Shown here one piece after another: positions 5,575 to 27,152 of a stretch of 64,000 bases of DNA. Every line of letters begins with the position of its first letter. The stretch's first letter is position 1. The DNA comes from Nocardioides marinus (GTDB taxonomy: Bacteria > Pseudomonadota > Alphaproteobacteria > Rhodobacterales > Rhodobacteraceae). The stretch lies in assembly GCA_019801415.1 (NCBI GenBank), contig JAHVJD010000002.1, positions 124,001-188,000 on the forward strand. Reading direction: 5' to 3'. Under the pieces are notes generated by a model. The model was not told the origin of the DNA and searched no databases. It saw only the letters and a list, made by a program, of their open reading frames with translations. The position numbers and the translations under genes are program-made.

Positions 5575-6610
5575 GATAAGCAATCACGGCGGCGATATCC
5601 TCGGCCTTTCGCAGCCCGGAAAATGACATCTTGGTGCCTTTCAGAAATGCCTTCGGCTTGGCCAGAAAGGTGCCGAGTGTTTCCTCGTCCCAGACCAGGC
5701 CATCAGCCGCAGCCGCCGACATCGCTTTGGAATACCGGAACCCCTCTACTTGCGCGACCGGCGCACCCACCACGTCATTCAGGGCCGGACCGCTGCGGGA
5801 TTGCGCCCCTTTGCCGACCTGATGGCACGCCTTGCACTTGCGAAACACTTTTTCGCCTGCAGCAACCAGCTCTGGATCCGGCGCCGGTTCCAGCGCTTTT
5901 GTCGCATCACTTTGCTGGGTCACCGCCGTTTCAGGCTGGGCAGCAGACGGTGTCTCCGGGGTCACGTCCAGTGTCCGCGCACGCATGGTGATCTCCACCG
6001 TGGTCTTGCAATTCTCCATGCAAGGCGAGTCGGTCCAGAAATGCCGCTCGGCCTCCTGCCGGTCATCCACGACGAACCCCTCCCGGTTCGGCATGCGGAC
6101 CTCCAGGATATTCTGGTCCGTCAGGGTAAAATCGTCGTCCACCAGATCATTGGAATAGAGAATATAGGCGGTTACCGCGTAGACCTCATCCGCCGACAAC
6201 GTCTGCGCCGCGCCAAACGGCATCGAGCGGTTGATGTAATCCCAAACTGACGTCACATGCGGCCAATAGCTGCCGACAGTCTTGACCGGATCGTCATGAT
6301 CCAGCGTGTCCCAGCCACCCGCAAGCTTCGGCCAATTTCCGACACCTTCGGCAAAATCGCCATGACAGGCGGCACATTTTTCCGCGAAAATCTCTTCACC
6401 TGTCAGGACATCGCCTGATCCCTCCGGCAAGCCACTGCCATCGGGTGGGACGTCCACATCCCAGGCCGCGATTTCCTCTGGCAATGCGGGGCGGCCCAGG
6501 CCGAATTGTCCGGCTGACGCGGGCAAAGCCGCCAGGCAAACCAGCGTTGCGGTCACTGCGATGTATCGTCCGGCTTTCAGATCCGGGCGCGCCTCAAGAA
6601 ACCTCGACAT
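5555..6610 (-). CDS. soxD: Sulfite dehydrogenase diheme cytochrome c subunit SoxD
   Basis: A 351-residue periplasmic c-type cytochrome with an N-terminal signal/anchor (about residues 13-33, ending LPASA). It carries two haem motifs, CAACH near residue 79 and CKACH near residue 260, with MSFSGL near the C-terminus as a possible haem ligand. The two cytochrome domains are joined by a proline- and glutamate-rich linker. SoxD partners molybdoprotein SoxC to oxidise the SoxY-bound sulfane sulfur, yielding six electrons per cycle. The start overlaps the soxC end by 17 bases, implying translational coupling. Its 3' end overlaps a convergent gene by 20 bases. Confidence 0.94.
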   Translation of the reverse strand: MSRFLEARPDLKAGRYIAVTATLVCLAALPASAGQFGLGRPALPEEIAAWDVDVPPDGSGLPEGSGDVLTGEEIFAEKCAACHGDFAEGVGNWPKLAGGWDTLDHDDPVKTVGSYWPHVTSVWDYINRSMPFGAAQTLSADEVYAVTAYILYSNDLVDDDFTLTDQNILEVRMPNREGFVVDDRQEAERHFWTDSPCMENCKTTVEITMRARTLDVTPETPSAAQPETAVTQQSDATKALEPAPDPELVAAGEKVFRKCKACHQVGKGAQSRSGPALNDVVGAPVAQVEGFRYSKAMSAAAADGLVWDEETLGTFLAKPKAFLKGTKMSFSGLRKAEDIAAVIAYLKAQSD

Positions 6611-7865
6611 TCTCCGCCTCCCCGTTTGCCTTCACCCACCAGGTCTGGATGGCATTGTTGTGATAGATCGAATTCAGGCCCCGTACCTCGCGCAGCTGCG
6701 CCTTGGTGGGCTGCACATAACCGCTGGTGTCCCTCGCCCGGCTTTGCAGCAGCATTTCCGCGCCGTCCCAATTAATGTCGAGGTAAAACCGTGTCAGCGC
6801 CTTGTCGGCGCCCGGAGCCGCCAGCCGCGCCTGCTGCCAGGTCTTGCCGCCGTCCAGCGACACATCAACGCCGCTGATTGCGCCGCGCCCCGACCATGCA
6901 AGACCGGTGATCACCAACGGCCCCTTGCCATGCGTAACCGGCGCCTGTGGACTGGGACTTGTGATGACGGATTTGGCATCCATCTCCCACGTCCATTTGC
7001 GGCTGATGCCATTGGCCAGGGTATCGGTGTATTTCGAGGTCTCCTCGCGGCTTTCCACCGGCTGGTCCATCACCTCGACCCGGCGCAACCACTTGATCCA
7101 CAGGTTGCCCTCCCAACCGGGCACCACCAGCCGCACCGGGTAGCCATGTTCCTTGCGCAACGCTTCGCCGTTGGCCTTGAAGGCGACCAGCACATCGTCC
7201 ATCGCCTTCTCCAGCGGGATCGAACGGCCGTTGGAGGAGGCATCCGCCCCCTCGACATAGACCCATTTACTCTGGGGGCTGACTCCCGCCTCTTCCAACA
7301 GGGTGCGCAGCGGCACGCCGGAGTATTCCATGTTGTGGATCATGCCATGGGTGAACTGCGCGCCATTCAGCTGGGCGCCCGCCCATTCCATCCCGGAATT
7401 CGCCGCGCATTCGCAGAAATACACCCGGTTTTCGCGCGGAAAACGTTCAAGATCAGCATAGGTGAACACCAGCGGCGTATCCACCAGCCCGTTGATCATC
7501 AACCGGTAGTCTTCTTTGCGCAGCTCAATTGCGCCGGAATGATGCCGCTCAAACGCGCAGCCCTGCGGCGTGATGGTGCCGTCCAGCGCATGGATCGGCG
7601 TGAAGTTGATTGAGCTGATGGTGTCCGCCGTCAGCCACTCCACATTGCGGCGCACCACGTCGCTTTCGTATTCGATCGGCAACCCATAGGGAGTGACGTC
7701 GACGCCATCGCCCAGACCACTGGCCCAGTCCTGCACCTCCGTAATCAGCGGATCGGGTGCGGCGGCGCGCCCCGCCCCGGCAGCCACCGCCCCGGCCCCG
7801 GCTGCCGCCGCCCCGGTTAAAAACTGGCGGCGCGAGGGCGCCATGCCCTTGGCATCATCACTCAT
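6594..7865 (-). CDS. soxC: Sulfite dehydrogenase molybdopterin subunit SoxC
   Basis: A 423-residue molybdenum-cofactor protein of the sulfite oxidase fold. A Tat signal is clear (SRRQFLTGAAAAG at residues 11-23). The molybdenum-binding cysteine lies in VYFCECAANSGMEW (C151 or C153), and a C-terminal dimerisation domain follows. With SoxD it forms Sox(CD)2, the sulfur dehydrogenase that lets the pathway run without accumulating sulfur. The ATG at 7865 has AGGAGG eight bases upstream. An inverted repeat shared with other sox promoters lies at 7891-7906, so soxCD may be separately regulated although soxB lies just upstream on the same strand. Confidence 0.96.
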   Translation of the reverse strand: MSDDAKGMAPSRRQFLTGAAAAGAGAVAAGAGRAAAPDPLITEVQDWASGLGDGVDVTPYGLPIEYESDVVRRNVEWLTADTISSINFTPIHALDGTITPQGCAFERHHSGAIELRKEDYRLMINGLVDTPLVFTYADLERFPRENRVYFCECAANSGMEWAGAQLNGAQFTHGMIHNMEYSGVPLRTLLEEAGVSPQSKWVYVEGADASSNGRSIPLEKAMDDVLVAFKANGEALRKEHGYPVRLVVPGWEGNLWIKWLRRVEVMDQPVESREETSKYTDTLANGISRKWTWEMDAKSVITSPSPQAPVTHGKGPLVITGLAWSGRGAISGVDVSLDGGKTWQQARLAAPGADKALTRFYLDINWDGAEMLLQSRARDTSGYVQPTKAQLREVRGLNSIYHNNAIQTWWVKANGEAENVEVS

Positions 7866-7890
7866 CTTGCTTGCCTCCTCACATAGATAA

Positions 7891-7906
7891 ATTCACGTTC
7901 GTGAAT
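7891..7906 (-). promoter_or_regulatory. Predicted SoxR operator before soxC
   Basis: The 16-mer ATTCACGTTCGTGAAT is an inverted repeat (ATTCACG / CGTGAAT) between the soxB stop and soxC start. It extends outwards to AATTCACG / CGTGAATT (7890-7907). It matches the ATTCA-N6-YGAAT pattern found before three other sox units. Binding by SoxR is inferred. Confidence 0.6.
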
Positions 7907-7975
7907 TCAACTGCGCAAATTTTTTTCAATGAGCGCCGGGACGGCTCCTTGCCGCCCCAGCGCCAGCGGGTGCCT

Positions 7976-9673
7976 TCAGACGCCCGCCACCTGAACCGAG
8001 GTATTCGGGGCCAGGCTGACGGTTCCCAGCTTGCGGATGTGGTCCTCCACCACATCCCAGATCATCGGACCTTCGGTGCCCTCGTTGACGCTGGCCCAGC
8101 CAGAGACCACGTAGGATTTCGATGGATCGATCAACTCGCCGGTGCGCAGCAGGGTCATTTCGCTGATCCGTTCACCTTGCGGCTTGCTGATGTCGATGCG
8201 GTAACCCATGCCGCCGATCCGCACCATGTCACCGCCCTGCTGGTAATAGGGGTCGGGGTTGAAGATGTTGTCAGCCACGTCTTCAAGAATGACCTTAATG
8301 AATTCCCCGGTCATCTCGGACCGGTAGGCAGCGCCATAAGACATCGAGGTGACGTTCCAGATATCTTCGCGGGTGATGTCATCGCCCGGCACCAGCGACG
8401 GCCCCCAACGCACCCCCGGCGACATGGCGATATCTGCCTCCCGCTCGCTCAGCAACGAGTCGCAGATCAAATCGTCCCAAGTGCCGTTAAAGTTGCCGCG
8501 CCGGTACAACAGTGTATCCGTCTGGCCGATCACCTCCGCCAGTTGGTCCTTGAAGGGCGCGCGCTCCGCCTCGATCAGCTGCGCAACCGCCGGGTCCGGT
8601 GCGATCACGTCCGAGAACACCGGGATCAGCTTGTGCCGCAGCCCCATCAGCTGGCCGTCGCGCACATCCAGATCGACGCGGGAGACGAATTTCCCGTTGG
8701 AGCCAGACGCGATGATATGCGTCTTGCCCACCAGAACCGGCTCCGGCAGCGCATCGTGGGTGTGGCCCGACAGGATCACGTCGATGCCCCGCACCTTGCC
8801 AGCCATCTTCTTGTCGACGTCAAAGCCGTTGTGGCTGAGCACTACCACCAGATCGGCACCGGCCGCGCGGACCTCGTCCACCATGGCCTGCATATTCTCG
8901 TCCCGGATACCAAAGGAATACTCCGGGAACATCCAGCCGGGGTTGGCAATCGGCATGTAAGGGAAAGCCTGACCGATCACCGCCACCTTTGCGCCGCCGC
9001 GTTCAAAGAACTTATAGGGCTTGAACAGCTCGGCCGGTTCGTCCCACTCGGCGTCAAAGATGTTCTGACCAAGCGCCGCAAAGGGCAGGCTTTCGACGAT
9101 TTCCTGCACGCGTTCCGATCCGAGCGTGAACTCCCAATGGAAGGTCATCGCATCCGGCTTCAGCGCATTCATCACGTTGACCATGTCCTGTCCCGCCGTG
9201 TGGTGGCAGGTGTAGGAGCCATGCCAGGTGTCGCCGCCATCAAACAGCAGCGCATCAGGGCGGTCGGCGCGGATAGCGTTGATGATCGTCGCCACCCGAT
9301 CCAGCCCACCAACCCGGCCATAGGCCTGCGCCAGCGCGGAAAAATCATCATGGGTCAGCGCATAGGCCGACGGGCTGCCATCGGCGATGCCATAGGCCTT
9401 GCGGAAATCGGCACCGGTGATGTGGGGCACATGCCCCTTGTTGGCGCCCACCCCGATATTCACCGAAGGTTCGCGGAAATAGATCGGCTTCAGTTGACCG
9501 TGGATATCGGTCACATGGATCAGGCTGATGTTTCCGTAGGTGTCGAACTCCAGCAGTTGATCCTGCGATAGCGACTGCTGAGCCGCCAAGCGCGCCCAGT
9601 TGCCAAAGCCTGACGCCCCCACCAATGCGGAGGCAGCCATTGAAACCTGAAGAAAATCGCGGCGCGAGATCAT
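7976..9673 (-). CDS. soxB: Thiosulfohydrolase SoxB
   Basis: A 565-residue di-manganese hydrolase of the 5'-nucleotidase/metallophosphatase superfamily that cleaves the terminal sulfone from SoxY-bound cysteine as sulfate. A Tat signal starts at once (ISRRDFLQVSMAAS). Metal-site motifs are HVTDIHGQL, FDGGDTWHGS and GHTHDALPE. The usual nucleotidase GNHEFD is replaced by FHWEFTLG, which distinguishes SoxB from nucleotidases. I use ATG 9673 because GAGG lies six bases before it; an ATG four codons upstream (9685) has no room for a ribosome site. An operator-like repeat and a terminator precede it, so it should start its own transcript. Confidence 0.97.
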   Translation of the reverse strand: MISRRDFLQVSMAASALVGASGFGNWARLAAQQSLSQDQLLEFDTYGNISLIHVTDIHGQLKPIYFREPSVNIGVGANKGHVPHITGADFRKAYGIADGSPSAYALTHDDFSALAQAYGRVGGLDRVATIINAIRADRPDALLFDGGDTWHGSYTCHHTAGQDMVNVMNALKPDAMTFHWEFTLGSERVQEIVESLPFAALGQNIFDAEWDEPAELFKPYKFFERGGAKVAVIGQAFPYMPIANPGWMFPEYSFGIRDENMQAMVDEVRAAGADLVVVLSHNGFDVDKKMAGKVRGIDVILSGHTHDALPEPVLVGKTHIIASGSNGKFVSRVDLDVRDGQLMGLRHKLIPVFSDVIAPDPAVAQLIEAERAPFKDQLAEVIGQTDTLLYRRGNFNGTWDDLICDSLLSEREADIAMSPGVRWGPSLVPGDDITREDIWNVTSMSYGAAYRSEMTGEFIKVILEDVADNIFNPDPYYQQGGDMVRIGGMGYRIDISKPQGERISEMTLLRTGELIDPSKSYVVSGWASVNEGTEGPMIWDVVEDHIRKLGTVSLAPNTSVQVAGV

Positions 9674-9703
9674 CGGTACCCTCATCCTCTATGCACGCGC
9701 TAC

Positions 9704-9723
9704 ACATTCACGCGAACGAATGT
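9704..9723 (-). promoter_or_regulatory. Predicted SoxR operator before soxB
   Basis: ACATTC at 9704-9709 and GAATGT at 9718-9723 form a perfect inverted repeat; the core 9706-9721 reads ATTCA-N6-CGAAT. It lies 31 bases upstream of the soxB start and just past the terminator of soxXYZA, a position suited to repressing a soxB promoter. Confidence 0.58.
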
Positions 9724-9730
9724 TTAAAGA

Positions 9731-9765
9731 AAGAAAAGCCCCGCGCCATGGTTCAGGCGCGGGGC
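9731..9765 (-). terminator. Intrinsic terminator after soxA
   Basis: A perfect 10-bp stem, GCCCCGCGCC (9738-9747) with GGCGCGGGGC (9756-9765), and an 8-base loop. On the minus strand it is followed by TTTTCTTTCTTT. It should end the soxXYZA transcript just before soxB. Confidence 0.85.
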
Positions 9766-9772
9766 AAATAAG

Positions 9773-10621
9773 TCAGTTGCGAACGGAGGGCGCTTCGACC
9801 GACAGCCCGTTTCCACGCGAAGCGACATACAGCTCCAACGCTACGAACTCCTCGGAACCCGGCGCATAGGTTTCAGCGCGGGTGTCGCGCACGCACCCTT
9901 TGAAGCGCGCATGTGCCGTGTTCAGCTTTGTGTTCTTCAAGCGATAAACAGGGAAGCCGTTGATCTGGCCCTGGCTCAGATGGTCGGCGCGGATCATATT
10001 GCCATAGTTGTCCTCGTGGCAGTTCGCGCAAGACAACTCCAGCTGGCCGGTGCGGGTGTAATACATCTCGCGGCCCTTCTCCCAAACCGATTGGGCGGGA
10101 CCATCAATCGCCACATTCACCGGCAGCCCGCGCGATTGCACCGAGATAAGCGCCTCCATCGCTGCCATCTTGCCGCCGGTGTATTTCCACGGCTCGGCCC
10201 CCATTTGGGTTTCGCGACAGTCATTGATTTGCATGTTCAAAGTGCGGACTTCACCGGCGGTCTCGTTCCACTTGGGATAGACCGCACGCACCCCCGCCAT
10301 GCTCTCCTCGACGTCACCATGGCACGCGGCGCAAGACTTGCCCTTGGAGCCCTCAACCGTTTCCCAGGTCTCAAGCGCTTGGTCTACGAACACCATGGCC
10401 GGGTTCTCGAAATCGTCCATCTGCAGCGCCTGCGTCTCATCCGAACGGAAATGCCAACCTGACATTATCTCGTCCATGACATCCGACAGATGCTCCGGAG
10501 CCGCTGCTTTGGTGACCATTTCGATCTCGTCGTTCACCACGAGCGTGTCGTCATCAGGGCCAGCGCCCGCGGCGAAAGGCAGCGCCAGCGCGGCGGCGGC
10601 TGCAATTACCTGTCTCTTCAT
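9773..10621 (-). CDS. soxA: Diheme cytochrome c SoxA, thiosulfate-SoxY coupling
   Basis: A 282-residue periplasmic cytochrome with a Sec signal (residues 1-20) and two haem motifs, CAACH at 97-101 and CANCH at 198-202, so it is the diheme form. The catalytic haem ligand is the cysteine in RFKGCVRD (C243), which in the family is a persulfide. With SoxX it joins thiosulfate oxidatively to the SoxY cysteine. The ATG at 10621 directly begins the signal peptide; the frame stays open upstream but that part shows no protein character. It lies 76 bases after soxZ and ends at a strong terminator. Confidence 0.96.
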   Translation of the reverse strand: MKRQVIAAAAALALPFAAGAGPDDDTLVVNDEIEMVTKAAAPEHLSDVMDEIMSGWHFRSDETQALQMDDFENPAMVFVDQALETWETVEGSKGKSCAACHGDVEESMAGVRAVYPKWNETAGEVRTLNMQINDCRETQMGAEPWKYTGGKMAAMEALISVQSRGLPVNVAIDGPAQSVWEKGREMYYTRTGQLELSCANCHEDNYGNMIRADHLSQGQINGFPVYRLKNTKLNTAHARFKGCVRDTRAETYAPGSEEFVALELYVASRGNGLSVEAPSVRN

Positions 10622-10697
10622 TCCTTGTCCTCCCGTGGGTGCCTGCCCTGCCCGGCCAAGCCCCGGCCAGTGCGCGTGCCTGAAGATCCGGACCGGA

Positions 10698-11027
10698 TCA
10701 GGAAACGGCGATCTTCTTGCTTGTGTCATAGACCGAGCCGTCATCGTCGTACCAGGTGAAGACAAACTCACCCGACTCGGACACCACGGCATCGAACTGG
10801 AAGTAAGGGTTGGTCGAGATCGCAGGCTCCATCGCAACGTCCACCACCATCTCGCCGTTGAAGGCACAGGTGAAGCGGTTGATGATCGAACGCGGGATGG
10901 TGTTGCCATCCTTGTCCTTGCGCTGGCCGCTTTCCATCTTGTGACTGATCAGGGTCTTGATCGTGACCGTCTCGCCGGCGGCAGCTGTTTTCGGGACCTT
11001 GACGCGGGGTTTAACACCGGATGCCAT
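10698..11027 (-). CDS. soxZ: Sulfur carrier complex subunit SoxZ
   Basis: A 109-residue protein without a signal peptide, as expected because SoxZ is exported bound to the Tat-signalled SoxY. Recognisable parts are ASGVKPRVKVPKTAAAGE, ISHKMESGQRKD and IINRFTCAFNGE, the immunoglobulin-like fold that forms a heterodimer with SoxY. The complex presents the SoxY C-terminal arm to SoxXA, SoxB and SoxCD. It lies 42 bases after soxY. Length is standard for the family. Confidence 0.97.
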   Translation of the reverse strand: MASGVKPRVKVPKTAAAGETVTIKTLISHKMESGQRKDKDGNTIPRSIINRFTCAFNGEMVVDVAMEPAISTNPYFQFDAVVSESGEFVFTWYDDDGSVYDTSKKIAVS

Positions 11028-11069
11028 GTCTTTGTTTCTCCTTCATAATACCGATTGGAGCGAGGCTAT

Positions 11070-11486
11070 TTAGCCGCCGCAACCGCCGATCGTGACCTTG
11101 ATCGTGGCACTGGTCTTGGCAAAGCTGCCATCGGCCAGCTTGGCGACCGCCACAACGTCCTGCGTGCCAGCCAAGCGGATCCGCGTGGACGCCGCCTGCT
11201 GCGCAGCTGCAGGGCCGAATTTGAAAGTGGCAACGCCCGGCTCGGGGTTCCCGGTCGCCAGAAGCATGATGGCAGTGGCCCCCGGTGCCTCAACCGAGAT
11301 CGGAACGGTGTTGCCGTTCTCGGCGATTTCCGGTGCGTTCAGCGTGATGTCGGCATCCGCCATCTCAGCTCCACCGGTGAATTCGGCGATCCGGTCTTCA
11401 GCTTTTGCGTTCACGCGGAACGGCAGCACGGTTACCATGGCGGCGCCCAGGCCCAAGGCCAGGGTCTCACGGCGTGAGAACTCCAT
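11070..11486 (-). CDS. soxY: Sulfur carrier protein SoxY
   Basis: A 138-residue protein with a Tat signal (FSRRETLALGLGAAM from residue 3) that ends exactly in GGCGG, with C136 as the sulfur-carrying residue on a flexible arm. All pathway intermediates stay covalently attached to this cysteine. I use ATG 11486, preceded by AGGAG, rather than the in-frame start at 11537, which would bury the twin-arginine motif. It sits 57 bases after soxX and 42 before soxZ in one transcription unit. Confidence 0.97.
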   Translation of the reverse strand: MEFSRRETLALGLGAAMVTVLPFRVNAKAEDRIAEFTGGAEMADADITLNAPEIAENGNTVPISVEAPGATAIMLLATGNPEPGVATFKFGPAAAQQAASTRIRLAGTQDVVAVAKLADGSFAKTSATIKVTIGGCGG

Positions 11487-11543
11487 CTTATTTCTCCTTT
11501 GATTGTCCCGCGGTCGGTCAGCGGCTTGGAACCGCAACCAGCG

Positions 11544-12056
11544 TCATTCTTCCTTCAGGGTCTCCAGAAAGGCGACCACATCCTCGATTTCCTGTGCCGT
11601 CAGGATAGGCGGAAGCGGTTCTGTCCCGGCTTTCCCGGTGTAGGCATCGCCGGGGCGGATGAAGCCCTCGACCTTGTAAAATGCGGGCATCATCGTGCCC
11701 TCGAACGTCTTCTTGGCATTGGCCACTAGACCGCGCAGCTCGGCCGCGGTCCAGCGGTCCCCGGCGCCATCCAGCGAGGGGCCGATTTCGCCGTGGAACG
11801 GCACATCCGCCAACGCGCTTACCTGATGGCACGCAACGCAGTTGCCCTTGGATTTGCTACCGGCAATCACGGCGCCCGCTTCAGCGTCGCCCGGCACGCC
11901 GGTCAGCGAAGTTTCCACTTCACCGTATTCCCCGTATTGCACCGCGTTCGGCGCGACCTCCTCCGCCAGAGCCGCGGTCCCGGCCAGCGCCAGACCTGCG
12001 CCCATAGTTGCGGCCAGACCGGCGGCCTGCGCCAGTGTCACAGTTAGATGCTTCAT
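11544..12056 (-). CDS. soxX: Monoheme cytochrome c SoxX
   Basis: A 170-residue periplasmic cytochrome with a Sec signal ending LAGTAALAEE and one haem motif, CVACH, at residues 73-77. The methionine in GTMMPAFY is a plausible axial ligand. SoxX partners SoxA, accepts its electrons and passes them to a small cytochrome c. The ATG at 12056 begins the signal peptide and has GGGAGG just upstream. It is the first gene of soxXYZA; an operator-like repeat lies 90 bases upstream. Confidence 0.95.
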   Translation of the reverse strand: MKHLTVTLAQAAGLAATMGAGLALAGTAALAEEVAPNAVQYGEYGEVETSLTGVPGDAEAGAVIAGSKSKGNCVACHQVSALADVPFHGEIGPSLDGAGDRWTAAELRGLVANAKKTFEGTMMPAFYKVEGFIRPGDAYTGKAGTEPLPPILTAQEIEDVVAFLETLKEE

Positions 12057-12145
12057 GTGTCCTCCCGTTGGCTGCCGCACGCGCTTGGCGGCCTGGCTAG
12101 CTGCGGACCAGCCTAGGCGGCGGCCCGGGCAATACGCAACAACAA

Positions 12146-12161
12146 ATTCAATCATGTGAAT
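12146..12161 (-). promoter_or_regulatory. Predicted SoxR operator before soxX
   Basis: ATTCAATCATGTGAAT, an inverted repeat with arms ATTCA and TGAAT (extendable to AAATTCA / TGAATTT). It lies in the soxW-soxX gap, a gap where SoxR binding has been described in related bacteria. It shares ATTCA-N6-YGAAT with three other sites here. Confidence 0.62.
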
Positions 12162-12185
12162 TTTTCCAAAAGCTGCGCCGACCCC

Positions 12186-12767
12186 CTAGTCCGTCGACCC
12201 ATTGTTGCGCTCGCGGATGCGGCGCGCGTGGTAGCGCTGGAAATCTTCCTCATTCTCAAGCGCATAGCGCTTTTCATTGACCCATGTAAACATGTCCATC
12301 GTGGTTCCCGGTCCAAAAGCGCCGGGCATCACCGCCACTGCGGCCTGTGGGGCGGTTTTGCCTTCCTCCACCTCTTCCGGCAGGAAAAGAATCGTCGGCG
12401 TGAACAGCAAACCCCACTTTCGGGCCATGTCTTTCTCCGCCAGAACCTCGCCGTCGAAATCGGTCACTTCGATGTCACCGTGCAGGTTCAGCTGCACAAC
12501 AAAGAAGTTTTCAGCGATGTATTTGCTGATGTCCGGCCGCGACAGCACCTCTTCGTGCATCTGGGTGCAATAGATGCAGCCGCGCTGCTCAAAGATCAGC
12601 GCCAGCCGTTTGCCCTCAGCGTTTGCTTCCTGCAGGTCTTCGCGCAAATCCTTGAAGGTGTCGCGCATCCAGGGCGCCTTGTGCAGACCGTCGTCGCCCA
12701 GCTCAGCAGCGGCAAGCGGCGTCGCAACGGCCAACGCCACAACAAATTTTGCAATGTATTTCAGCAT
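12186..12767 (-). CDS. soxW: Periplasmic thioredoxin SoxW
   Basis: A 193-residue thioredoxin-fold protein with a Sec signal (residues 1-21) and a CIYC redox motif at residues 64-67 preceded by IFEQRG; the cis-proline region is LFTPTILFL. SoxW receives reductant from membrane protein SoxV and helps keep the SoxY cysteine reduced. I use ATG 12767 with GGAGGA upstream; the frame extends four codons further to a TTG. It starts 19 bases after soxV and is probably co-transcribed with it. Confidence 0.93.
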   Translation of the reverse strand: MLKYIAKFVVALAVATPLAAAELGDDGLHKAPWMRDTFKDLREDLQEANAEGKRLALIFEQRGCIYCTQMHEEVLSRPDISKYIAENFFVVQLNLHGDIEVTDFDGEVLAEKDMARKWGLLFTPTILFLPEEVEEGKTAPQAAVAVMPGAFGPGTTMDMFTWVNEKRYALENEEDFQRYHARRIRERNNGSTD

Positions 12768-12786
12768 GCTATCCTCCAAACCTCAG

Positions 12787-13524
12787 TCAACCTATTGTGC
12801 TGAACGCGGGCATCCAGCGGATCATCGCCTCGGCAATCAGCCGCACGCCGCCGGTTGCTATCAGCACCGCGAATACCACCAGCATCGCGCCCATGCCCTT
12901 TTCCACCCAGGCAAAAGCCGCGCGGTGGCGCGCCACCCAGGCCAGGAACGGCCGCGCAAACAGCGCTGCAACCACGAAGGGCGCAGTCATGCCCAGCCCG
13001 TAGACCAGCAGCAGCAACCCGCCGCGCCAGACGTCCCCCATGCCCGAGGCAATCATCAGGATCGAGGCCAGCGCCGGCCCCACGCAGGGGGTCCAGCCAA
13101 AGCCGAAGGCGAGCCCCATCAGATAGGCTCCCAGCACCGTTGACGGCTCGGCACGGCTTTCCATCCGCGCCTCACGGTAGAGCAGCGGGATTTTCACGAC
13201 ACCCAGGAAATGCAGCCCGAACAGCAGCAGCAGCGCGGCCGCGCCATACGATAGGATGTCCAGGTACTGCCCGAACAGCTGCCCCAGCGCAGTGGCGCCC
13301 ATGCCCATCAGCATGAACACCGTCGTCACCCCGGCGGCGAAACAGACCGCCGAAATCAGCAACCGCCGCTGCGCACCCGGCGCAATCGCGCCATTTCCGC
13401 GCAGTTCGGTCATGGACAGCCCCCCCATGTAAGACAGGTAGAACGGCACCATTGGCAAAATGCAGGGCGTGAAAAAGCTCAGCAGCCCAGCCGCCAGCGC
13501 ACCAAACAGGGTAATTTCCAGCAT
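12787..13524 (-). CDS. soxV: CcdA-type thiol transporter SoxV
   Basis: A 245-residue inner-membrane protein with six predicted helices, of the CcdA/DsbD family. The two redox cysteines lie in SFFTPCILPMVP and GWTPCVGPALAS, symmetrical in the two halves. It passes electrons from cytoplasmic thioredoxin to periplasmic SoxW. I use ATG 13524, where MLEITLFGALAAGLLSFF begins the first helix. It is divergent from soxS across a 108-base promoter region holding an operator-like repeat. Confidence 0.94.
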   Translation of the reverse strand: MLEITLFGALAAGLLSFFTPCILPMVPFYLSYMGGLSMTELRGNGAIAPGAQRRLLISAVCFAAGVTTVFMLMGMGATALGQLFGQYLDILSYGAAALLLLFGLHFLGVVKIPLLYREARMESRAEPSTVLGAYLMGLAFGFGWTPCVGPALASILMIASGMGDVWRGGLLLLVYGLGMTAPFVVAALFARPFLAWVARHRAAFAWVEKGMGAMLVVFAVLIATGGVRLIAEAMIRWMPAFSTIG

Positions 13525-13583
13525 CCCGTTCCCGCCCTTCTTTTGCCGCGCCCACAGGGTCGTCAACGGGTCCGGCTTGTATC

Positions 13584-13599
13584 ATTCACATATTCGAAT
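13584..13599. promoter_or_regulatory. Predicted SoxR operator in the soxV-soxS divergent promoter
   Basis: ATTCACATATTCGAAT has ATTCA and CGAAT half-sites six bases apart, the same arrangement as at 9706-9721. It lies between the divergent soxV (60 bases away) and soxS (34 bases away), so one bound repressor could shut both transcripts. Confidence 0.6.
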
Positions 13600-13632
13600 T
13601 ACGTTGAATCTCGACGAACCGTCAACAGATGG

Positions 13633-14025
13633 ATGACACGGATGCGGCGCTTTCGGCAACTGCTGACCCTGGCAGCCCTGACACTGGCGCCCCTGCCCGC
13701 GCTGGCGGCTGAACTGGTCATGGTGGAACAAACAGGCTGCGAATGGTGCGCGCGCTGGGACGCCGAGATCGCACCGATATACCCGAAGACAGCCGAGGGG
13801 CGCTTTGCACCGCTGCGCCGGGTGGACCTGCAAGATATGCCACCAGATCTGCAACTGCGTCGCCGCGTCCTTTTCACTCCCACGTTTCTTCTGGTCGAAA
13901 ACGGACAGGAAATGGCCCGACTGGAAGGATATCCGGGAGAAGACTTTTTCTGGCCCCTTTGGGCCGATCTGCTCACCGACCACACAGACTTTGCCGACAC
14001 CACGCAATCATCAGACGGCAGCTGA
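13633..14025 (+). CDS. soxS: Thioredoxin-like protein SoxS
   Basis: A 130-residue periplasmic thioredoxin-fold protein with a Sec signal (residues 1-26, ending LPALAAE) and a CEWC motif at 36-39. The cis-proline region is LFTPTFLLV. SoxS of Paracoccus reductively reactivates SoxYZ. No strong ribosome site is visible; ATG 13633 and ATG 13642 are both possible and the signal works from either. Divergent from soxV and followed after 54 bases by soxR, with which it probably forms an operon. Confidence 0.9.
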   Translation: MTRMRRFRQLLTLAALTLAPLPALAAELVMVEQTGCEWCARWDAEIAPIYPKTAEGRFAPLRRVDLQDMPPDLQLRRRVLFTPTFLLVENGQEMARLEGYPGEDFFWPLWADLLTDHTDFADTTQSSDGS

Positions 14026-14079
14026 GCGCGCTGTCGATTTCGCAAACGGAAACAGGCGCGGAACCGCCAGGAGACAAAA

Positions 14080-14418
14080 ATGCCCCTACCGCAGTTTTCT
14101 GCTGACATGGAGCCCGAGGACATGGACCGCATGGTCAGCAATGCCGCGAAGGCATCGAATTTCCTCAAGGCGATCAGCCACGAAGGGCGGCTGATGATCC
14201 TGTGCCACCTGGTCTCCGGCGAAAAATCCGTGACCGAGCTGGAAGAGCTATTATCTGCACGGCAAGCTGCTGTTTCCCAGCAACTGTCGCGCTTGCGTCT
14301 CGAAGGGCTGGTGATCCCGAGACGCGAAGGCAAGGCGATTTACTACCGACTGGCCGATGACAAGCCGCGCCGCATACTTGAAGTTGTCTATGATCTGTTC
14401 TGCAAGGACGGCAGCTGA
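14080..14418 (+). CDS. soxR: ArsR-family repressor SoxR
   Basis: A 112-residue winged-helix regulator of the ArsR/SmtB type. The recognition helix region reads SVTELEELLSARQAAVSQQL and the wing RREGKAIYYRL. Two cysteines are present, in ILCHLVSG and near the C-terminus (LFCKDGS); in SoxR proteins such a pair senses sulfur species. Position next to soxS and soxT and the four inverted repeats in the cluster support a role as sox repressor. AGGAGA precedes the ATG. Confidence 0.92.
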   Translation: MPLPQFSADMEPEDMDRMVSNAAKASNFLKAISHEGRLMILCHLVSGEKSVTELEELLSARQAAVSQQLSRLRLEGLVIPRREGKAIYYRLADDKPRRILEVVYDLFCKDGS

Positions 14419-17965: not shown

Positions 17966-19579
17966 ATGACACCGAAACATCGAGCTGCTGACGTACTGGC
18001 GCAGCGCCTTTATCAAGCAGGCTGCCGCCACGCCTTCGGCATGCCCGGCGGCGAAGTCCTGACACTGGTCGATGCCCTGACACGGGCGGGAATCGCGTTC
18101 CATCTGGCAAAGCACGAAAACTGTGCGGGTTTCATCGGCGAGGGCGTCCACCACGCGGATGGGGCCCCGGTTGTGCTGGTGGCCACCCTCGGCCCCGGCG
18201 CGCTGAACGGTGTCAACGTCGTCGCCAATGCCTTGCAGGATCGTGTTCCAATGCTGGTGCTGACAGGCTGCGTCGACGCCGACGAGGCCCATTGCTACAC
18301 CCACCAGGTTCTCGATCATCAGGCGGTCATGCGCCCCATCACCAAGGCGAGCTTTCGGCTCGACGCAAATGCAGCGGGGCTGATTGCCGACAAGGCGATC
18401 GCGATTGCGACCGCACCACGCAACGGGCCGGTGCACATCGACGTTCCGATCTCCGTTGCGGATGCACCAGCCCCGAGCGCCTCGCCACGCAGCGCGCCCG
18501 CAAGTGCAACTGTGCCAGACAGCGTGGCGCTGGCGCGGGCGCACGACTGGCTCGCTGCGTCAGACCGACCGCTGGCGGTGATCGGGCTGGATGCCTTGCA
18601 GGAAAATGCGGGCGATACGCTTCGCAGTTTCCTCGAGAAATTCCAGATCCCCTTTGTCACCACGTACAAGGCCAAGGGTATCATCCCCGAAGACCACGCG
18701 CTCTGTCTTGGCGCGGCCGGCCTGTCGCCGCTGGCTGACAAGTTCCTGCTGCCACTGTTGCGCGCGGCCGACCTCGTGCTGTGTCTCGGCTATGATCCGA
18801 TCGAGATGCGGCCGGGCTGGCGCGATGTGTGGGATCCGGATCGACAAAGAGTGATCGACATCGCCCCCGAGGCAAACACCCATTACATGCACCATGCAGG
18901 GCTGAACTTCGTCGCAGCCCTCAAACCCACACTCACGGCCCTCTCAACTGGCGCAGCGCCTCGCGCGACCTGGACCTGCGGGCAGCATCTCGAAGTCAAA
19001 GCCGCGCTGGCCGAGGCGTTTCCACACAATGATGCTTGGGGACCAGCGGGCGTCATCGCGGAATGCCGCGCGACCTTGCCGTCGGATACGCTTGCCACGG
19101 CCGACAGCGGCGCGCACCGAATTCTGCTCAGCCAGATGTGGCAGTGCACCGAGCCTCGCGGACTGATCCAATCTTCCGGGCTTTGCACAATGGGCTGCGC
19201 CGTGCCGATGGCCATTGGTCGAAAACTGGCACAGCCGGACCGCCCGGTTGTCAGCTTCTCCGGAGACGCGGGCTTTTTGATGGTCGCAGGCGAACTCGCC
19301 ACCGCGGCTGAACTGGGCGTTGCTCCGATCTTCGTGGTATTTGCAGATGCCAGTCTCGCCCTTATCGAGCTGAAGCAACGCCAGCGACAGTTGGAAAACG
19401 CCGGGGTGGACTTTGGCAGGCACGATTTTGCCGCCATGGGTCGCGCTTTTGGTGGCAATGGAGCAACCGTGCGCAATCGCCTTCAGCTGCGCGAGGCGTT
19501 GCAAGAGGCGTTGAATGCCGACACATTTACCGTAATTTCGGCAGAGATCGACGCAGGAGGGTACGATGGGCGGATCTGA
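17966..19579 (+). CDS. Thiamine-diphosphate enzyme of the acetolactate synthase family
   Basis: A 537-residue ThDP enzyme with the usual three domains: pyrimidine-binding (residues about 5-170, activating glutamate E51 in AKHENCAG), central (about 185-320) and pyrophosphate-binding (about 365-530). The ThDP/Mg motif reads SGDAGFLM with FADASLALIELKQR about 27 residues on, so the usual GDG is GDA and the usual NN is replaced by AS. Relatives include acetolactate synthase, oxalyl-CoA decarboxylase and various keto-acid decarboxylases. It overlaps the following CoA-transferase gene by 14 bases, so the two likely act together. Substrate unknown; a catabolic rather than isoleucine/valine role is inferred because no small regulatory subunit gene adjoins it. 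Confidence 0.8.
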   Translation: MTPKHRAADVLAQRLYQAGCRHAFGMPGGEVLTLVDALTRAGIAFHLAKHENCAGFIGEGVHHADGAPVVLVATLGPGALNGVNVVANALQDRVPMLVLTGCVDADEAHCYTHQVLDHQAVMRPITKASFRLDANAAGLIADKAIAIATAPRNGPVHIDVPISVADAPAPSASPRSAPASATVPDSVALARAHDWLAASDRPLAVIGLDALQENAGDTLRSFLEKFQIPFVTTYKAKGIIPEDHALCLGAAGLSPLADKFLLPLLRAADLVLCLGYDPIEMRPGWRDVWDPDRQRVIDIAPEANTHYMHHAGLNFVAALKPTLTALSTGAAPRATWTCGQHLEVKAALAEAFPHNDAWGPAGVIAECRATLPSDTLATADSGAHRILLSQMWQCTEPRGLIQSSGLCTMGCAVPMAIGRKLAQPDRPVVSFSGDAGFLMVAGELATAAELGVAPIFVVFADASLALIELKQRQRQLENAGVDFGRHDFAAMGRAFGGNGATVRNRLQLREALQEALNADTFTVISAEIDAGGYDGRI

Positions 19580-20765
19580 ACAACTACCCTACGGGGCGTT
19601 GAAAGGCGTCAAGGTTCTCGACCTGTCGCGCATTCTGGCAGGTCCCACCTGCACCCAGCTGCTGGGCGACCTCGGGGCCACGGTCATCAAAGTGGAAAAC
19701 CCCGCAACCGGCGGGGATGACACCCGCCAATGGGGGCCACCCTACGTCGTGGTCTCCGCTGGCAAACAATCCGATCTCTCGGCCTACTTCATGGCTGCGA
19801 ACCGCAACAAGCATTCGATCGCGGTGGATATCGCCAGCGCAGAGGGCCAACGCACCATCCGCCGCCTCGCGGCGGAGGCCGACATCCTGATCGAGAATTT
19901 CAAACCCGGCGGCCTTGCAAAATACGGACTGGATTACGCCAGCCTGCGCGACGAGTTTCCAGGGCTGATCTATTGCTCGATTTCCGGCTACGGCCAGACC
20001 GGTCCGAACAGCCACAAACCGGGTTATGACATCATGGCCCAGGGTTTCGGCGGGTTCATGTCCCTGACCGGAGAGCCGGACGGCGAACCGATGAAGGCGG
20101 GCGTCGGCATCGCCGACGTGATGTGTGGCATGTATGCCTGCATCGGCATCCTGTCCGCGCTGCACCACCGGGAGAAGACCGGCGAAGGTCAGCAAATCGA
20201 TCTGTCGCTTGTCGACTCCCAGATCGCCTGGCTGATCAACGAGGGTGTCGCCCATCTTAACACCGGCATGAATCCCCGGCGGCGAGGCAACGAACATCCC
20301 AGCATCGTGCCCTATGGAACCTATGAAACCGCCGATGGTCATGTCATTCTGGCCGTCGGCAACGACAGCCAATTTCGCCGCTTCATGGAGTTTCTGAAGC
20401 TGGAGGGGCTGGCCGAAGACCCGCGATTTTCCACCAACCCGGCGCGCCTGGACAACCGCGACGCTCTGAACGCGATCCTCCGCCCGGCTGTGCAGCGCCA
20501 CACGACCGAGGCAGTGCTGGCGGCCATGGAAGCACGCAAGGTCCCCGCTGGACCGGTGCAGGACCTGCCAACCCTCTTCAAGACAGAACAAGTGGCAGCC
20601 CGCAACATGGTGGTCGAGATGGATACGGTCGCCGGTCCCGTGAAACTGCTGGGCAACCCGCTTAATTTCTCCCGAACCCCGGTCACATACCGTCGCCCGC
20701 CCCCCGCCTGCGGCGACAGCACCGATGAAATCCTGGGCGCGTCCTCCCCCTTTGACCTGACCTAG
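19566..20765 (+). CDS. Class III CoA-transferase (CaiB/BaiF family)
   Basis: A 399-residue family III acyl-CoA transferase. Typical motifs are VLDLSRILAGPTCTQLLGDL, KVENPATGGDDTRQWGPP and YCSISGYGQTGP; the catalytic aspartate should be the one in PGYDIMAQGFGG. Family members move CoA between carboxylates, for example formate/oxalate, carnitine, succinate/itaconate or mesaconate. The start lies inside the end of the ThDP-enzyme gene, with GGAGG just upstream, a sign of translational coupling. A ThDP lyase plus CoA-transferase recalls the oxalate pathway, but the partner lacks clear oxalyl-CoA decarboxylase features. Substrate unknown. Confidence 0.87.
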   Translation: MGGSEQLPYGALKGVKVLDLSRILAGPTCTQLLGDLGATVIKVENPATGGDDTRQWGPPYVVVSAGKQSDLSAYFMAANRNKHSIAVDIASAEGQRTIRRLAAEADILIENFKPGGLAKYGLDYASLRDEFPGLIYCSISGYGQTGPNSHKPGYDIMAQGFGGFMSLTGEPDGEPMKAGVGIADVMCGMYACIGILSALHHREKTGEGQQIDLSLVDSQIAWLINEGVAHLNTGMNPRRRGNEHPSIVPYGTYETADGHVILAVGNDSQFRRFMEFLKLEGLAEDPRFSTNPARLDNRDALNAILRPAVQRHTTEAVLAAMEARKVPAGPVQDLPTLFKTEQVAARNMVVEMDTVAGPVKLLGNPLNFSRTPVTYRRPPPACGDSTDEILGASSPFDLT

Positions 20766-20837: not shown

Positions 20838-21024
20838 CTGTCGTTTCTCGCCGTGAGCTCTTGCAAAAAAATCTCTAGAAATCTTACACCTGCGCCAAAT
20901 TCTGCCGTCTGGACCACACGGGCAATCACCAAAGCGCGAGCAGGGTTCGCCGGAAGCAATACGATGATCTAACCTTTCTTGGACCGGCCTGACCGCGATT
21001 GCTTTACGACAGAGATTGGACCCC

Positions 21025-22386
21025 ATGACGCATGATATCTTCGGCCAAGACACCAGCCTGACCGCTGGCGCCGCCCTGAACGACTGGAACGCGGTGCAGC
21101 TTGGGATATTGTCCCATTCCGCGTCCACGGCCCAACACCTCGCCGCAGTGCTGCAGAGCGCGCCGCGATTTGCCCTCGGCCATGCGATCAAGGGACTGTC
21201 GCTTTTGATGTTGGGCCGCAGCGAACTCATCCCCTCGGCGCGAGAGGCACTTCGTGACGCCCGTGCCTGCTACGAGACTGCCCTGCCGCGCGAGCGCAAG
21301 TATATCGACGCCCTGGGCAGCTGGCTGCAGGGCCAGCCCAGCCGTGCAGTCAGCCAAATGGAAGAGGTCCTGGCCCGTTGGCCGCAGGACAGCCTCGCGA
21401 TGAAGCTGAGCCACGGCATCCGCTTCATCCTCGGCGATGCCAAGGGGATGCGCGGTTCGCTTGAACGGGTGCTGCCCGCCTACGCCCCGGACCATCCCGG
21501 GCACGGCTACCTGCTCGGATGCCACGCCTTTGCCCTTGAAGAAACCGGCGAGTACGAGCGTGCGGCAACAGCCGGGCGGCAGGCGCTCTGGACGGCACCT
21601 GACGACGCTTGGGGGCTGCACGCGGTCGCACATGTCCACGACATGACAGGCAACGCCCGAGCCGGTCTCGAGTGGTTTGAGGGCCGCGAGGGCGCCTGGG
21701 CCCATTGCAACAATTTCCGCTATCACGTGTGGTGGCACAAGGCGCTGATGTATCTGGATCTGGGCCAGATGGACCAGGCTCTCGCGCTCTATGACACGAA
21801 AGTGCGCAGCGACAAGACTGACGATTACCGCGACATCTCCAATGCCACGTCTCTCTTGATGCGGCTGGAACTGGAAGCCGTCAGCGTCGGAGATCGCTGG
21901 GAGGAACTGGCCGAGCTCTGCGCGCAACGGACCGAAGACGGCAGCCTGGTGTTTGCTGACCTGCATTACCTGATGGCGCTGGTCGGCCACCGGCCGGAAG
22001 AGGCGCATCGTCTGGTGCAGCGCATTCATGCCGATGGACGCAGCCCACAGACCGAAGCACAGACACGCATGGCCTCTCCCGGCTGCGCCGCCGCCGACGG
22101 TCTGGAGGCTTTTGGAGAGGGCAACTACGCCGCTGCCTTTGCCCACCTGTGCGCGGCGCGCCCCACCATGCAGCTGGCCGGCGGAAGCCACGCCCAGCGC
22201 GACGTCTTCGAGCGCATCACCATCGACGCAGGCTTGCGCGCGGGACGACTGGACGAGATCGAGACACTCCTCGATGACCGCCGCCGACTGCGCGGCGGCA
22301 CTGAAGACAACTATTCTCTGGCCCGACGCGAATTAATTGCGGAGGCGCGGAACCCGCCTGCCCCAACGAGCGTTCCAGCGGAATAG
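21025..22386 (+). CDS. Tetratricopeptide-repeat protein (TTC38-like)
   Basis: A 453-residue soluble protein built from helical TPR units along most of its length (for example HAIKGLSLLMLGRSELIPSA, LGCHAFALEETGEYERAATA and ALMYLDLGQMDQALALYD). The order and length match the bacterial homologues of TTC38, whose function is not established. There is no signal peptide. ATG 21025 is used; an in-frame TTG three codons earlier is less likely. It lies 55 bases before opgC on the same strand and could be co-transcribed with the glucan genes, which would be a new association. Confidence 0.75.
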   Translation: MTHDIFGQDTSLTAGAALNDWNAVQLGILSHSASTAQHLAAVLQSAPRFALGHAIKGLSLLMLGRSELIPSAREALRDARACYETALPRERKYIDALGSWLQGQPSRAVSQMEEVLARWPQDSLAMKLSHGIRFILGDAKGMRGSLERVLPAYAPDHPGHGYLLGCHAFALEETGEYERAATAGRQALWTAPDDAWGLHAVAHVHDMTGNARAGLEWFEGREGAWAHCNNFRYHVWWHKALMYLDLGQMDQALALYDTKVRSDKTDDYRDISNATSLLMRLELEAVSVGDRWEELAELCAQRTEDGSLVFADLHYLMALVGHRPEEAHRLVQRIHADGRSPQTEAQTRMASPGCAAADGLEAFGEGNYAAAFAHLCAARPTMQLAGGSHAQRDVFERITIDAGLRAGRLDEIETLLDDRRRLRGGTEDNYSLARRELIAEARNPPAPTSVPAE

Positions 22387-23722: not shown

Positions 23723-25223
23723 CTTCGCTCACTCGTCGCTCTTTCCTCACGACCGCCCTGGGTACGACCATACTGGCGGCTCTGCCGATGAAAGGCCGGG
23801 CCGATCTTCCCTTTAGCCATGACAGGGTGGTGGAAAAGGCCCGCGCGCTGGCCCAAGAGGTCTACGCGGAACGCCCCACAGTACCGAAAGACTGGCTCGA
23901 ACTATCCTATGACGATTACCGAACGCGCTGGTTCCGCACCGCCGACGCGTTGTGGTCTGACACGCAACGCAGCTACAACGTGGACTTCTTCCTGCCCGGC
24001 CTCTACTTCCCACGTCCCGTGCAGATCAACACGGTGACCGAGGGGGTAACAGCGCCGGTACCGTTTGATCTGTCGCTGTTCGACAAATCCGACAAGGCAC
24101 CAGAGCTTTCGAGCGAGGGGTACCTCGGCTATTCCGGCCTTCGCCTGCGCACCAATCTGGACACGGCGGACCACAAGACCGAGTTCTGCGTCTTTCAGGG
24201 GGCCAGTTATTTTCGCGCCATCGGGATCGGCAACACATATGGGCTGTCTGCCCGAGGGCTTGCGCTGAAAACCGCAGACCCGGAAGGCGAGGAATTCCCT
24301 GAATTCATCGAATTCTGGCTCGAAGCACCAGAGCCGGAACAGCGCCATTTCATCCTGCATGCCCTGATGGATTCGCCCTCGGTCACCGGCGCCTACCGGT
24401 TTCATGTCACCCCGGGGGCCAACACCGTGATGGATGTGGAGGCGACACTTTTCCCTCGAAAGGAACTGAAACATGCGGGTCTCGCGCCCCTTACCTCCAT
24501 GTTCCTGTTCGACGCCACCAATCGCCATCGCTTTGATGATTTCCGGCCCGCGGTACATGACAGCGACGGGCTGCTGGTCGCGAATGGCAACGGCGAGATC
24601 CTGTGGAGACCCTTGGCCAATCCCAACCGTTTGGAAGTCTCTTCCTTCGTCGACGAAAATCCGCGCGGCTTCGGGTTGATCCAGAGAGCGCGGAGGTTGA
24701 CCGATTACAATGATCTCGAGGCTCTGTACCACAAACGCCCCAGTCTTTGGGTGGAACCAAAACACGAGTGGAGCAAGGGGGCCGTCACGCTTGTCGAAAT
24801 TCCGGCCGACAAAGAAATCTATGACAATATCGTCGCGTATTGGCGACCGCAAACGCCCTATGCCGCAGGGTCCGAAGTCAACCTCAGCTACCGGTTGAGC
24901 TGGGGCGCGGAACCGTCCCTGCCCCTGCCCCGCGTGGTGGAAACCGCAAGCGGCGCACGGATCTTTGGCGGGCCGGGACGGATCATGACCATCGAATATG
25001 AGCCGCACCCTCTGCACGAGGGCAATCCGGAGGGGCTGACCGTGCATATCCATTCTCCGCACGTTCAAACCACCAACGGCATCCTGCAACGCAACCCGGA
25101 AACCGGCGGCCTGCGCCTGGCGTTCTATTTCGATCCCGGTGATCGCGATCATGTGGAATTGCGCGCGCAACTTCGCAAGGATGGCGCCCCCGCGTCCGAA
25201 GTCTGGCTTTACAGGTGGACAGC

Positions 25224-25227
<4 letters not shown>
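23719..25227 (+). CDS. opgG: Periplasmic glucan biosynthesis protein OpgG
   Basis: A 502-residue periplasmic protein of the MdoG/OpgG/OpgD family with a Tat-type signal (TRRSFLTTALGTTILAALPM at residues 5-24). Family segments include YFPRPVQINTVTEG, GYSGLRLRTNL and ASYFRAIGIGNTYGLSARGL. OpgG is required for building beta-1,6 branches on, or for processing of, the glucan backbone. The twin-arginine signal makes it like OpgD in export route. The start overlaps opgC by four bases (ATGA) and the end overlaps opgH likewise. A much longer frame upstream is only a shadow of opgC. Confidence 0.92.

Positions 25228-27152
<1,925 letters not shown>

Follow-up and report, generated by a model that had tools for sequence, protein, structure and literature searches.

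Here we analyse two overlapping genes lying in a 64,000-nucleotide stretch of DNA from Nocardioides marinus (assembly GCA_019801415.1, contig JAHVJD010000002.1, positions 124,001 to 188,000, placed by GTDB in Rhodobacteraceae), which is referred to below as the window. The first gene (17966..19579, plus strand) encodes a thiamine diphosphate (ThDP)-dependent enzyme of 537 aa, and the second (19566..20765, plus strand) a class III CoA-transferase (CoAT) of 399 aa. In our judgement there is about an even chance that the two proteins serve an organosulfur pathway centred on 3-sulfinopropanoate (3SP), in which the ThDP enzyme would be a decarboxylase of omega-sulfinyl 2-oxo acids and the CoAT would activate 3SP as a succinyl-CoA:3-sulfinopropanoate CoA-transferase. 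What is new is that the results are pointing to a role for a ThDP clade which had not previously been given a function, namely feeding the already known 3SP desulfination pathway.

The two genes are coupled in the window as well as in its relatives. They share 14 bp (19566..19579, plus strand), and a ribosome-binding-like GGAGGG precedes the CoAT ATG inside the ThDP gene. Among 50 related loci having the CoAT gene no farther than 200 bp from the ThDP stop codon, the 14-bp overlap with its in-frame ATG is kept in 43. An earlier note on this DNA, made from the sequence alone, had described the overlap and understood it as a sign of a joint task; the former is confirmed and the latter gains support from conservation of the pairing, as 55 of 82 loci have both genes on one strand with no more than 150 bp between them. 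This set comprises loci of at least 18 kb holding the ThDP gene and consists mainly of close roseobacters. Of all the loci collected, 79 belong to named genome records and the others to further genomes and plasmids. All three ThDP domains are recognized by Pfam in the first protein and CoA_transf_3 (PF02515, 444 bits) in the second. The ThDP gene was present in each of 20 same-genus genomes searched (79-82% identity), and the named best matches of its product belong to Leisingera, so the genome is that of a Leisingera-like roseobacter.

The earlier note had also stated that no regulator, transporter or dehydrogenase nearby reveals the substrate, which is right for the immediate neighbours in the window, but the neighbours in the relatives point to 3SP-CoA desulfinase. 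In many of them the gene upstream of the ThDP gene encodes a protein of the acyl-CoA dehydrogenase family, and three such proteins, scored against the NCBIfam model of 3-sulfinopropanoyl-CoA (3SP-CoA) desulfinase with a cut-off of 600 bits, reached 654.7, 661.6 and 672.2. Among solved structures the closest is 5af7 (520 bits); residues aligned with its Arg84 and Gln246 are conserved in 41 of 41 sequences, and the position of the usual catalytic Glu of medium-chain acyl-CoA dehydrogenase (MCAD) is Gly or Ala in the same 41. We take all three positions to have functional roles. In the 3SP locus of a Mesorhizobium loti plasmid (L185), genes of propionyl-CoA carboxylase and methylmalonyl-CoA mutase adjoin that of the desulfinase, as would be expected, because its product would be propionyl-CoA.

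Within 9 kb of the ThDP gene, the 82 loci contained CoAT, a tetratricopeptide repeat (TPR) protein and an OpgC-type acyltransferase in 53 cases, desulfinase and CoAT in 8, TPR and OpgC in 6, desulfinase alone in 5, desulfinase and TPR in 3, none of them in 3, CoAT and OpgC in 2, CoAT alone in 1, and CoAT and TPR in 1. At a distance of up to 150 bp on the same strand, desulfinase was found in 11/82, OpgC in 7/82 and the TPR protein in 3/82. In a wider set of 123 loci, some of them retrieved through the desulfinase, 27 carry both ThDP and desulfinase genes, mostly no more than 60 bp apart. As separate observations, five SAR324 loci (L093, L096, L099, L107, L112) have the ThDP gene next to or near that of the desulfinase, with a CoAT nearby in four of the five, and in one of these records (L112) the ThDP gene is in pieces; on the plasmid pW43B of Parasedimentitalea marina (L183, 8976-11617) two weaker desulfinase pieces (88 and 212 bits) lie upstream of the ThDP gene, possibly a broken desulfinase gene.

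The association extends to whole genomes. In 385 alphaproteobacterial genomes (ThDP accepted at E<=1e-90, desulfinase above its cut-off), the ThDP protein occurs in 31, the desulfinase in 49 and both in 17 against 3.9 expected (Fisher p 2.9e-9, in a test ignoring the species tree); counted by genus, both occur in 14 of 277 against 3.1 expected (p 2.1e-8). Among 398 genomes sampled across the phylum, the respective numbers are 14, 6 and 4 (p 1.4e-5). The two genes lie within about 2 kb of each other in 8 of the 17 genomes and apart in 9, so adjacency alone does not explain the co-occurrence. Furthermore, at least four changes between desulfinase and OpgC contexts are needed on the ThDP tree (leaving out five 'n' and two 'c' rows, which have neither neighbour, and three outgroups) and at least three on the CoAT tree, and constraining the desulfinase-context ThDP proteins to a single clade was rejected (delta lnL 519, p-AU 0.0014). 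We take this to mean that the same enzyme pair serves in contexts that can replace each other.

Placement of the CoAT leads in the same direction. In a tree of 66 rows, 55 CoATs encoded beside ThDP and/or desulfinase genes form one clade (100/95) with the window protein inside; one of the 55 (L173_A) is a fragment filled to 23%, the placement of which is meaningless, and it was removed for the context-change count. By sequence, the window protein is thus assigned to the 3-sulfinopropionate CoAT clade. Its best three plasmid matches (54-57% identity) are all neighbours of desulfinase genes. The desulfinase-linked CoATs of three loci with no ThDP gene (L184, L185, L186), two of which have a CDO-like gene, also fall inside. 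Outside are the CoATs found beside acyl-CoA dehydrogenase (L199, L200) or 3-oxoadipyl-CoA thiolase (L202, L204), formyl-CoA transferase (Frc), YfdE, and two further CoATs encoded in the window's genome. In four genomes (G242, G267, G106, G031; in the last the desulfinase was identified by protein match and not by the family cut-off) the desulfinase is encoded elsewhere with no CoAT alongside, and the only CoAT of this kind adjoins the ThDP gene (54-65% identity, next best 36-39%). Two more (G564, G727) show the same split, their other CoATs not having been searched. These two are among the seven genomes read of the nine in the class sample in which the genes are not adjacent; in the remaining five the CoAT was at the desulfinase locus in one (G774) and at neither locus in four (G490, G690, G761, G590), some of them on short contigs. 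The view of the earlier note that the reaction is linked to a CoA-activated acid is supported as likely.

The same data bear on the alternative that both enzymes handle ordinary carboxylates, the ThDP enzyme acting on 2-oxoadipate or 2-oxoglutarate and the CoAT on glutarate or another dicarboxylate, with the desulfinase recruited in some lineages only. The top family model of the CoAT is indeed succinate-glutarate CoA-transferase, although its score does not reach the cut-off (454.8 against 750), and genomes of the window type mostly do not have the desulfinase. Against it stand the exclusion of dehydrogenase- and thiolase-linked CoATs from the clade, the inclusion of the three desulfinase-linked CoATs having no ThDP partner, and the interchange of contexts within a single ThDP clade; we consider it unlikely. 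A glutaryl-CoA pathway in particular, which had first been suggested by the gene order LysR-CoAT-dehydrogenase, was rejected, since the 'dehydrogenase' scores as 3SP-CoA desulfinase and since the CoAT clade leaves out the sampled CoATs linked to dehydrogenases and thiolases. With the known succinate-glutarate CoA-transferases of SUGCT/GcdG type the CoAT shares its best family model and, by assumption, the same succinyl-CoA logic, but the CoATs linked to dehydrogenases and thiolases branch outside its clade.

The ThDP protein forms, together with its relatives, a well-separated clade of its own on the acetolactate synthase (ALS) side of the superfamily, as judged from the sequences. All 75 window-like proteins group in a single clade (SH-aLRT 100, stem 1.87) separate from Oxc, Xsc, IlvI, Gcl and PoxB in a tree of 90 rows; it was obtained by a 'quick' method and several reference rows are long-branched, which makes the order among the references unsure. 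The closeness to the ALS group proposed in the earlier note is supported; the protein reaches no NCBIfam cut-off, but ALS models score best. The identity with Xsc was dismissed, as the Xsc model, with a cut-off of 676.4, matches the protein only in pieces (78.9 and 52.7 bits) and the protein lies outside the Xsc clade; the genuine Xsc of the window's genome is encoded elsewhere (917.3 bits). The cofactor site looks intact, because the catalytic E51 and the metal-site residues D434 and D461 are invariant in 75 of 75 clade members. The replacement of GDG by GDA, also pointed out in the earlier note, is real in the window protein, but 10 of the 75 clade members have G there against 65 with A, and GDA is present also in an outgroup protein of 32% identity. 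The supposed AS in place of the NN of the ThDP/Mg motif turned out to come from an alignment shift: the second Asn, which we take to be a metal ligand, corresponds to D461, and A462-S463 are the following two positions. The argument that the earlier note drew from the motif is accordingly not supported.

Further invariant residues of the clade (75/75) are Lys235, Lys237, Arg282, His384, Arg385 and Lys470. Lys235 aligns with a Met of E. coli IlvI, presumably with a role in the substrate pocket. Lys470 aligns with a Trp of IlvI, and the Trp at this AHAS position is reported to bind 2-ketobutyrate (PMC5727371). From the sequence, the two lysines would suit a 2-oxo acid bearing a second negative charge. 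Outgroup ThDP proteins of 32-34% identity (L196, L197, L198, L177) are also encoded near aldehyde dehydrogenase genes, and they are probably further decarboxylases.

The position of Lys470 is one of the arguments that weigh against a second alternative, in which the ThDP enzyme is an ALS-like carboligase joining a C2/C3 unit to an acceptor and the linkage to 3SP is indirect. The predicted structure (pLDDT 93.4) finds Bacillus AlsS as its top fold match (TM 0.89-0.91, 28-29% identity), and with AlsS (PDB 4rji/4rjj/4rjk) the window protein shares the fold, the ThDP/Mg site and the HQ motif. It differs by belonging to a separate clade, by the invariant Lys at two substrate-pocket positions, one of them that of the 2-ketobutyrate-binding Trp, and by widely missing every ALS equivalog cut-off of NCBIfam (341.7/509, 288.4/510 for AlsS, 260.3/551.1 and 243.7/538.35). 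An aldehyde dehydrogenase gene, moreover, neighbours the ThDP gene in Cupriavidus necator and in several outgroup loci, and we hold a carboligase to be rather improbable. It would be a still poorer guess, which we hardly expect to prove right, that the order is reversed and the CoAT first makes a 2-hydroxyacyl- or 2-oxoacyl-CoA, which the ThDP enzyme then cleaves by the logic of 2-hydroxyacyl-CoA lyase (HACL) or oxalyl-CoA decarboxylase: the genes overlap as if translationally coupled and HACL enzymes belong to the same superfamily, but the HACL identity was rejected at 163.2 bits against a cut-off of 600. An oxalate-type pair, that is, an oxalyl-CoA-decarboxylase-like enzyme with a formyl-CoA transferase, is scarcely credible, for although the same two superfamilies are adjacent there, Frc and Oxc being neighbours in E. 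coli, the CoAT scores 211.6 against the Frc cut-off of 504.2 and stands apart from Frc and YfdE, and the ThDP protein is outside the Oxc clade, in agreement with the earlier note, which had not placed the two in the oxalate pathway.

Returning to the 3SP pathway, we infer the reaction of the ThDP enzyme, its substrate and the direction of the route as follows. Homocysteine sulfinate would probably be transaminated to 2-oxo-4-sulfinobutanoate, most likely the substrate that the ThDP enzyme would decarboxylate to 3-sulfinopropanal; a dehydrogenase of the succinate-semialdehyde type would oxidise the latter to 3SP, the CoAT would move CoA to it from succinyl-CoA, and the desulfinase, where present, would split 3SP-CoA into propionyl-CoA and sulfite. 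Each step up to 3SP-CoA is read as handling the sulfinate analogue of glutamate, 2-oxoglutarate, succinic semialdehyde or succinate, and the substrate and the amino acid are named so because the line ends in 3SP-CoA, provided that the line is correct. Homocysteine sulfinic acid has been reported to be a substrate of E. coli glutamate decarboxylase. Oxidation of sulfur at a later stage, with 4-mercapto-2-oxobutanoate made first, would need a thiol dioxygenase, the gene of which was found in none of 16 ThDP+desulfinase loci of at least 18 kb; a CDO-like gene occurred in 2 of 13 desulfinase loci having no ThDP gene. The idea that thiol dioxygenase and ThDP enzyme are mutually exclusive feeders was dropped, 0/16 against 2/13 being too few to claim exclusion.

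Candidates for the accompanying enzymes are co-clustered in a few loci. On plasmid pBB1 of C. necator N-1 the genes of a TauE-type exporter, an FAD oxidase, a LysR regulator, the CoAT, the desulfinase and a binding protein are followed, after transporter and LysR genes, by a block of aminotransferase, ThDP enzyme, aldehyde dehydrogenase and M20 deacetylase, about 5 kb from CoAT and desulfinase. The top model of this aldehyde dehydrogenase is succinate-semialdehyde dehydrogenase (SSADH; 606.4 bits, cut-off 646.35), and that of the aminotransferase an aspartate transaminase (451.8, cut-off 617). In L075, L076 and L108 the ThDP and CoAT genes are separated by an aminotransferase gene of this type, and an aldehyde dehydrogenase gene lies about 7 kb from the ThDP gene in L072/L175, which represent one strain. 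This strain, L090 and L092 have in addition a ProX-type transporter, from which no substrate can be inferred.

The known 3SP pathway of Advenella mimigardefordensis DPN7 and Variovorax paradoxus TBEA6 (Mdo, Act or SucCD, Acd) resembles the loci described here in its LysR-class III CoAT-desulfinase core, in the desulfinase family, and in that the CoAT shares a clade with the CoATs that accompany the desulfinase in other bacteria; the published account gives LysR, class III CoAT, Acd and Mdo as the core of the A. mimigardefordensis cluster (PMC5373536). The ThDP loci differ by adding the ThDP enzyme, in some cases along with an aminotransferase and an aldehyde dehydrogenase, by the thiol dioxygenase gene not being found where ThDP and desulfinase occur together, and, in the window's genome, by lack of the desulfinase. 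The V. paradoxus TBEA6 cluster is described as containing mdo, act, acdA and a 'putative acetolactate synthase IlvX', which is more abundant on thiodipropionate and 3SP (PMC6370202). With the exception of this mention of IlvX, our literature search, for which most subscription papers were outside reach, returned no paper joining a ThDP enzyme to the 3SP pathway.

Several observations speak against the 3SP pathway as the function of the pair. Of the 31 genomes with the ThDP gene in the class sample, 14 have no desulfinase, among them the window's genome, where the best match is 255.2 bits against the cut-off of 600; a protein search found it in only 2 of 20 congeners, in both cases beside a second ThDP copy. 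Aminotransferase or SSADH-type dehydrogenase genes are near the ThDP gene in few loci only. Two outgroup proteins (L196, L197) carry all or most of Lys235, Lys237 and Lys470 with no desulfinase annotated alongside, so the lysines suggest an anionic substrate and not specifically a sulfinate. The canonical 3SP pathway runs without the need of a ThDP enzyme (PMC5373536), and in V. paradoxus the deletion of IlvX, a possible member of this clade, had no effect on growth on thiodipropionate (PMC6370202). We nevertheless infer that the window copy would keep the same activity despite its genome having no desulfinase.

If the 3SP pathway is correct, it would provide a testable function for a ThDP clade that we encountered in marine roseobacters, Planktomarina, SAR324, Rhizobiales and Cupriavidus, and whose annotation, in the cases seen, does not go beyond 'thiamine pyrophosphate-binding protein'. 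It would suggest a second source of 3SP, so far met mostly in the breakdown of synthetic thioethers and disulfides: the sulfinate of an amino acid, either homocysteine or a related one. Sulfur amino acids would then be degraded by a route with propionyl-CoA and sulfite as its end products. One may also ask why desulfinase-free genomes retain both enzymes next to OpgC and, in the window's genome, close to a sox cluster.

In the window's genome the pair sits in a second recurrent module, next to the sox cluster. Downstream of the CoAT gene follow, all on the plus strand, the recurrent partners of the ThDP gene, that is, the genes of a 456-aa TPR protein (21016..22386) and an OpgC-type membrane acyltransferase (PF10129; 22439..23722), and then two neighbours that are module members in some lineages only, OpgG/MdoG of periplasmic glucan synthesis (PF04349; 23719..25227) and the OpgH/MdoH glucosyltransferase (25215..27152). 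The TPR protein is modelled well (pLDDT 94) as a plain TPR solenoid, with generic TPR matches only; a guessed likeness to human TTC38 brought no function either, as the literature on that protein describes unidentified metabolites and assigns it none. Beyond Rhodobacteraceae, the ThDP gene accompanies OpgC, and usually the TPR protein, in families f10, f16, f26, f34, f54 and f118, and on plasmids of Rhizobium, Sinorhizobium and Bosea, the plasmid stretches having no opgG or opgH annotated. OpgC of E. coli and Rhodobacter sphaeroides succinylates periplasmic glucans (PMC4726272). The PF10129 protein recurring here differs from these known O-succinylating enzymes in that in several lineages it travels with the ThDP gene and no opgH is nearby. 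By a doubtful extension, in modules of the window type OpgC might transfer the 3-sulfinopropanoyl group, which resembles a succinyl group, to a glycan of the periplasm or the cell surface instead of the sulfinyl acyl-CoA being broken down; if true, a polymer decorated with a sulfur acid would be built from waste sulfur amino acids. The literature search gave no paper linking OpgC with thiamine pyrophosphate.

Upstream of the ThDP gene lie the genes of a PhoX-family protein and of a sulfur transport protein of the YeeE/YedE family (PF04143; 14437..15495, plus strand), and the sox cluster of thiosulfate/sulfite oxidation (5555-14418), which stands directly upstream of the module together with an ArsR-type regulator and the YeeE/YedE protein; its SoxB, SoxC, SoxX, SoxY and SoxZ exceed their NCBIfam cut-offs. 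Relatives of the YeeE/YedE protein adjoin the module in five divergent loci (L153, L154, L156, L158, L166). In Bosea and Sinorhizobium loci a gene of an ECF sigma factor is found with NrsF-type or DUF1109 genes nearby, which suggests stress control; NrsF-type/DUF1109 genes beside the ThDP-OpgC module were located in L160 (8074-8730), L181 (7543-8843) and L187 (3522-5513), with ECF sigma in the last two. In the M. loti plasmid locus L185 a relative of the TPR protein lies beside genes of the glutamine synthetase and gamma-glutamyl hydrolase families. The PhoX-ThDP interval of the window holds no DUF302 gene; a DUF302 protein gene adjoins the ThDP module in many loci (L034, 9384-9854; L147; L154; L156; L176).

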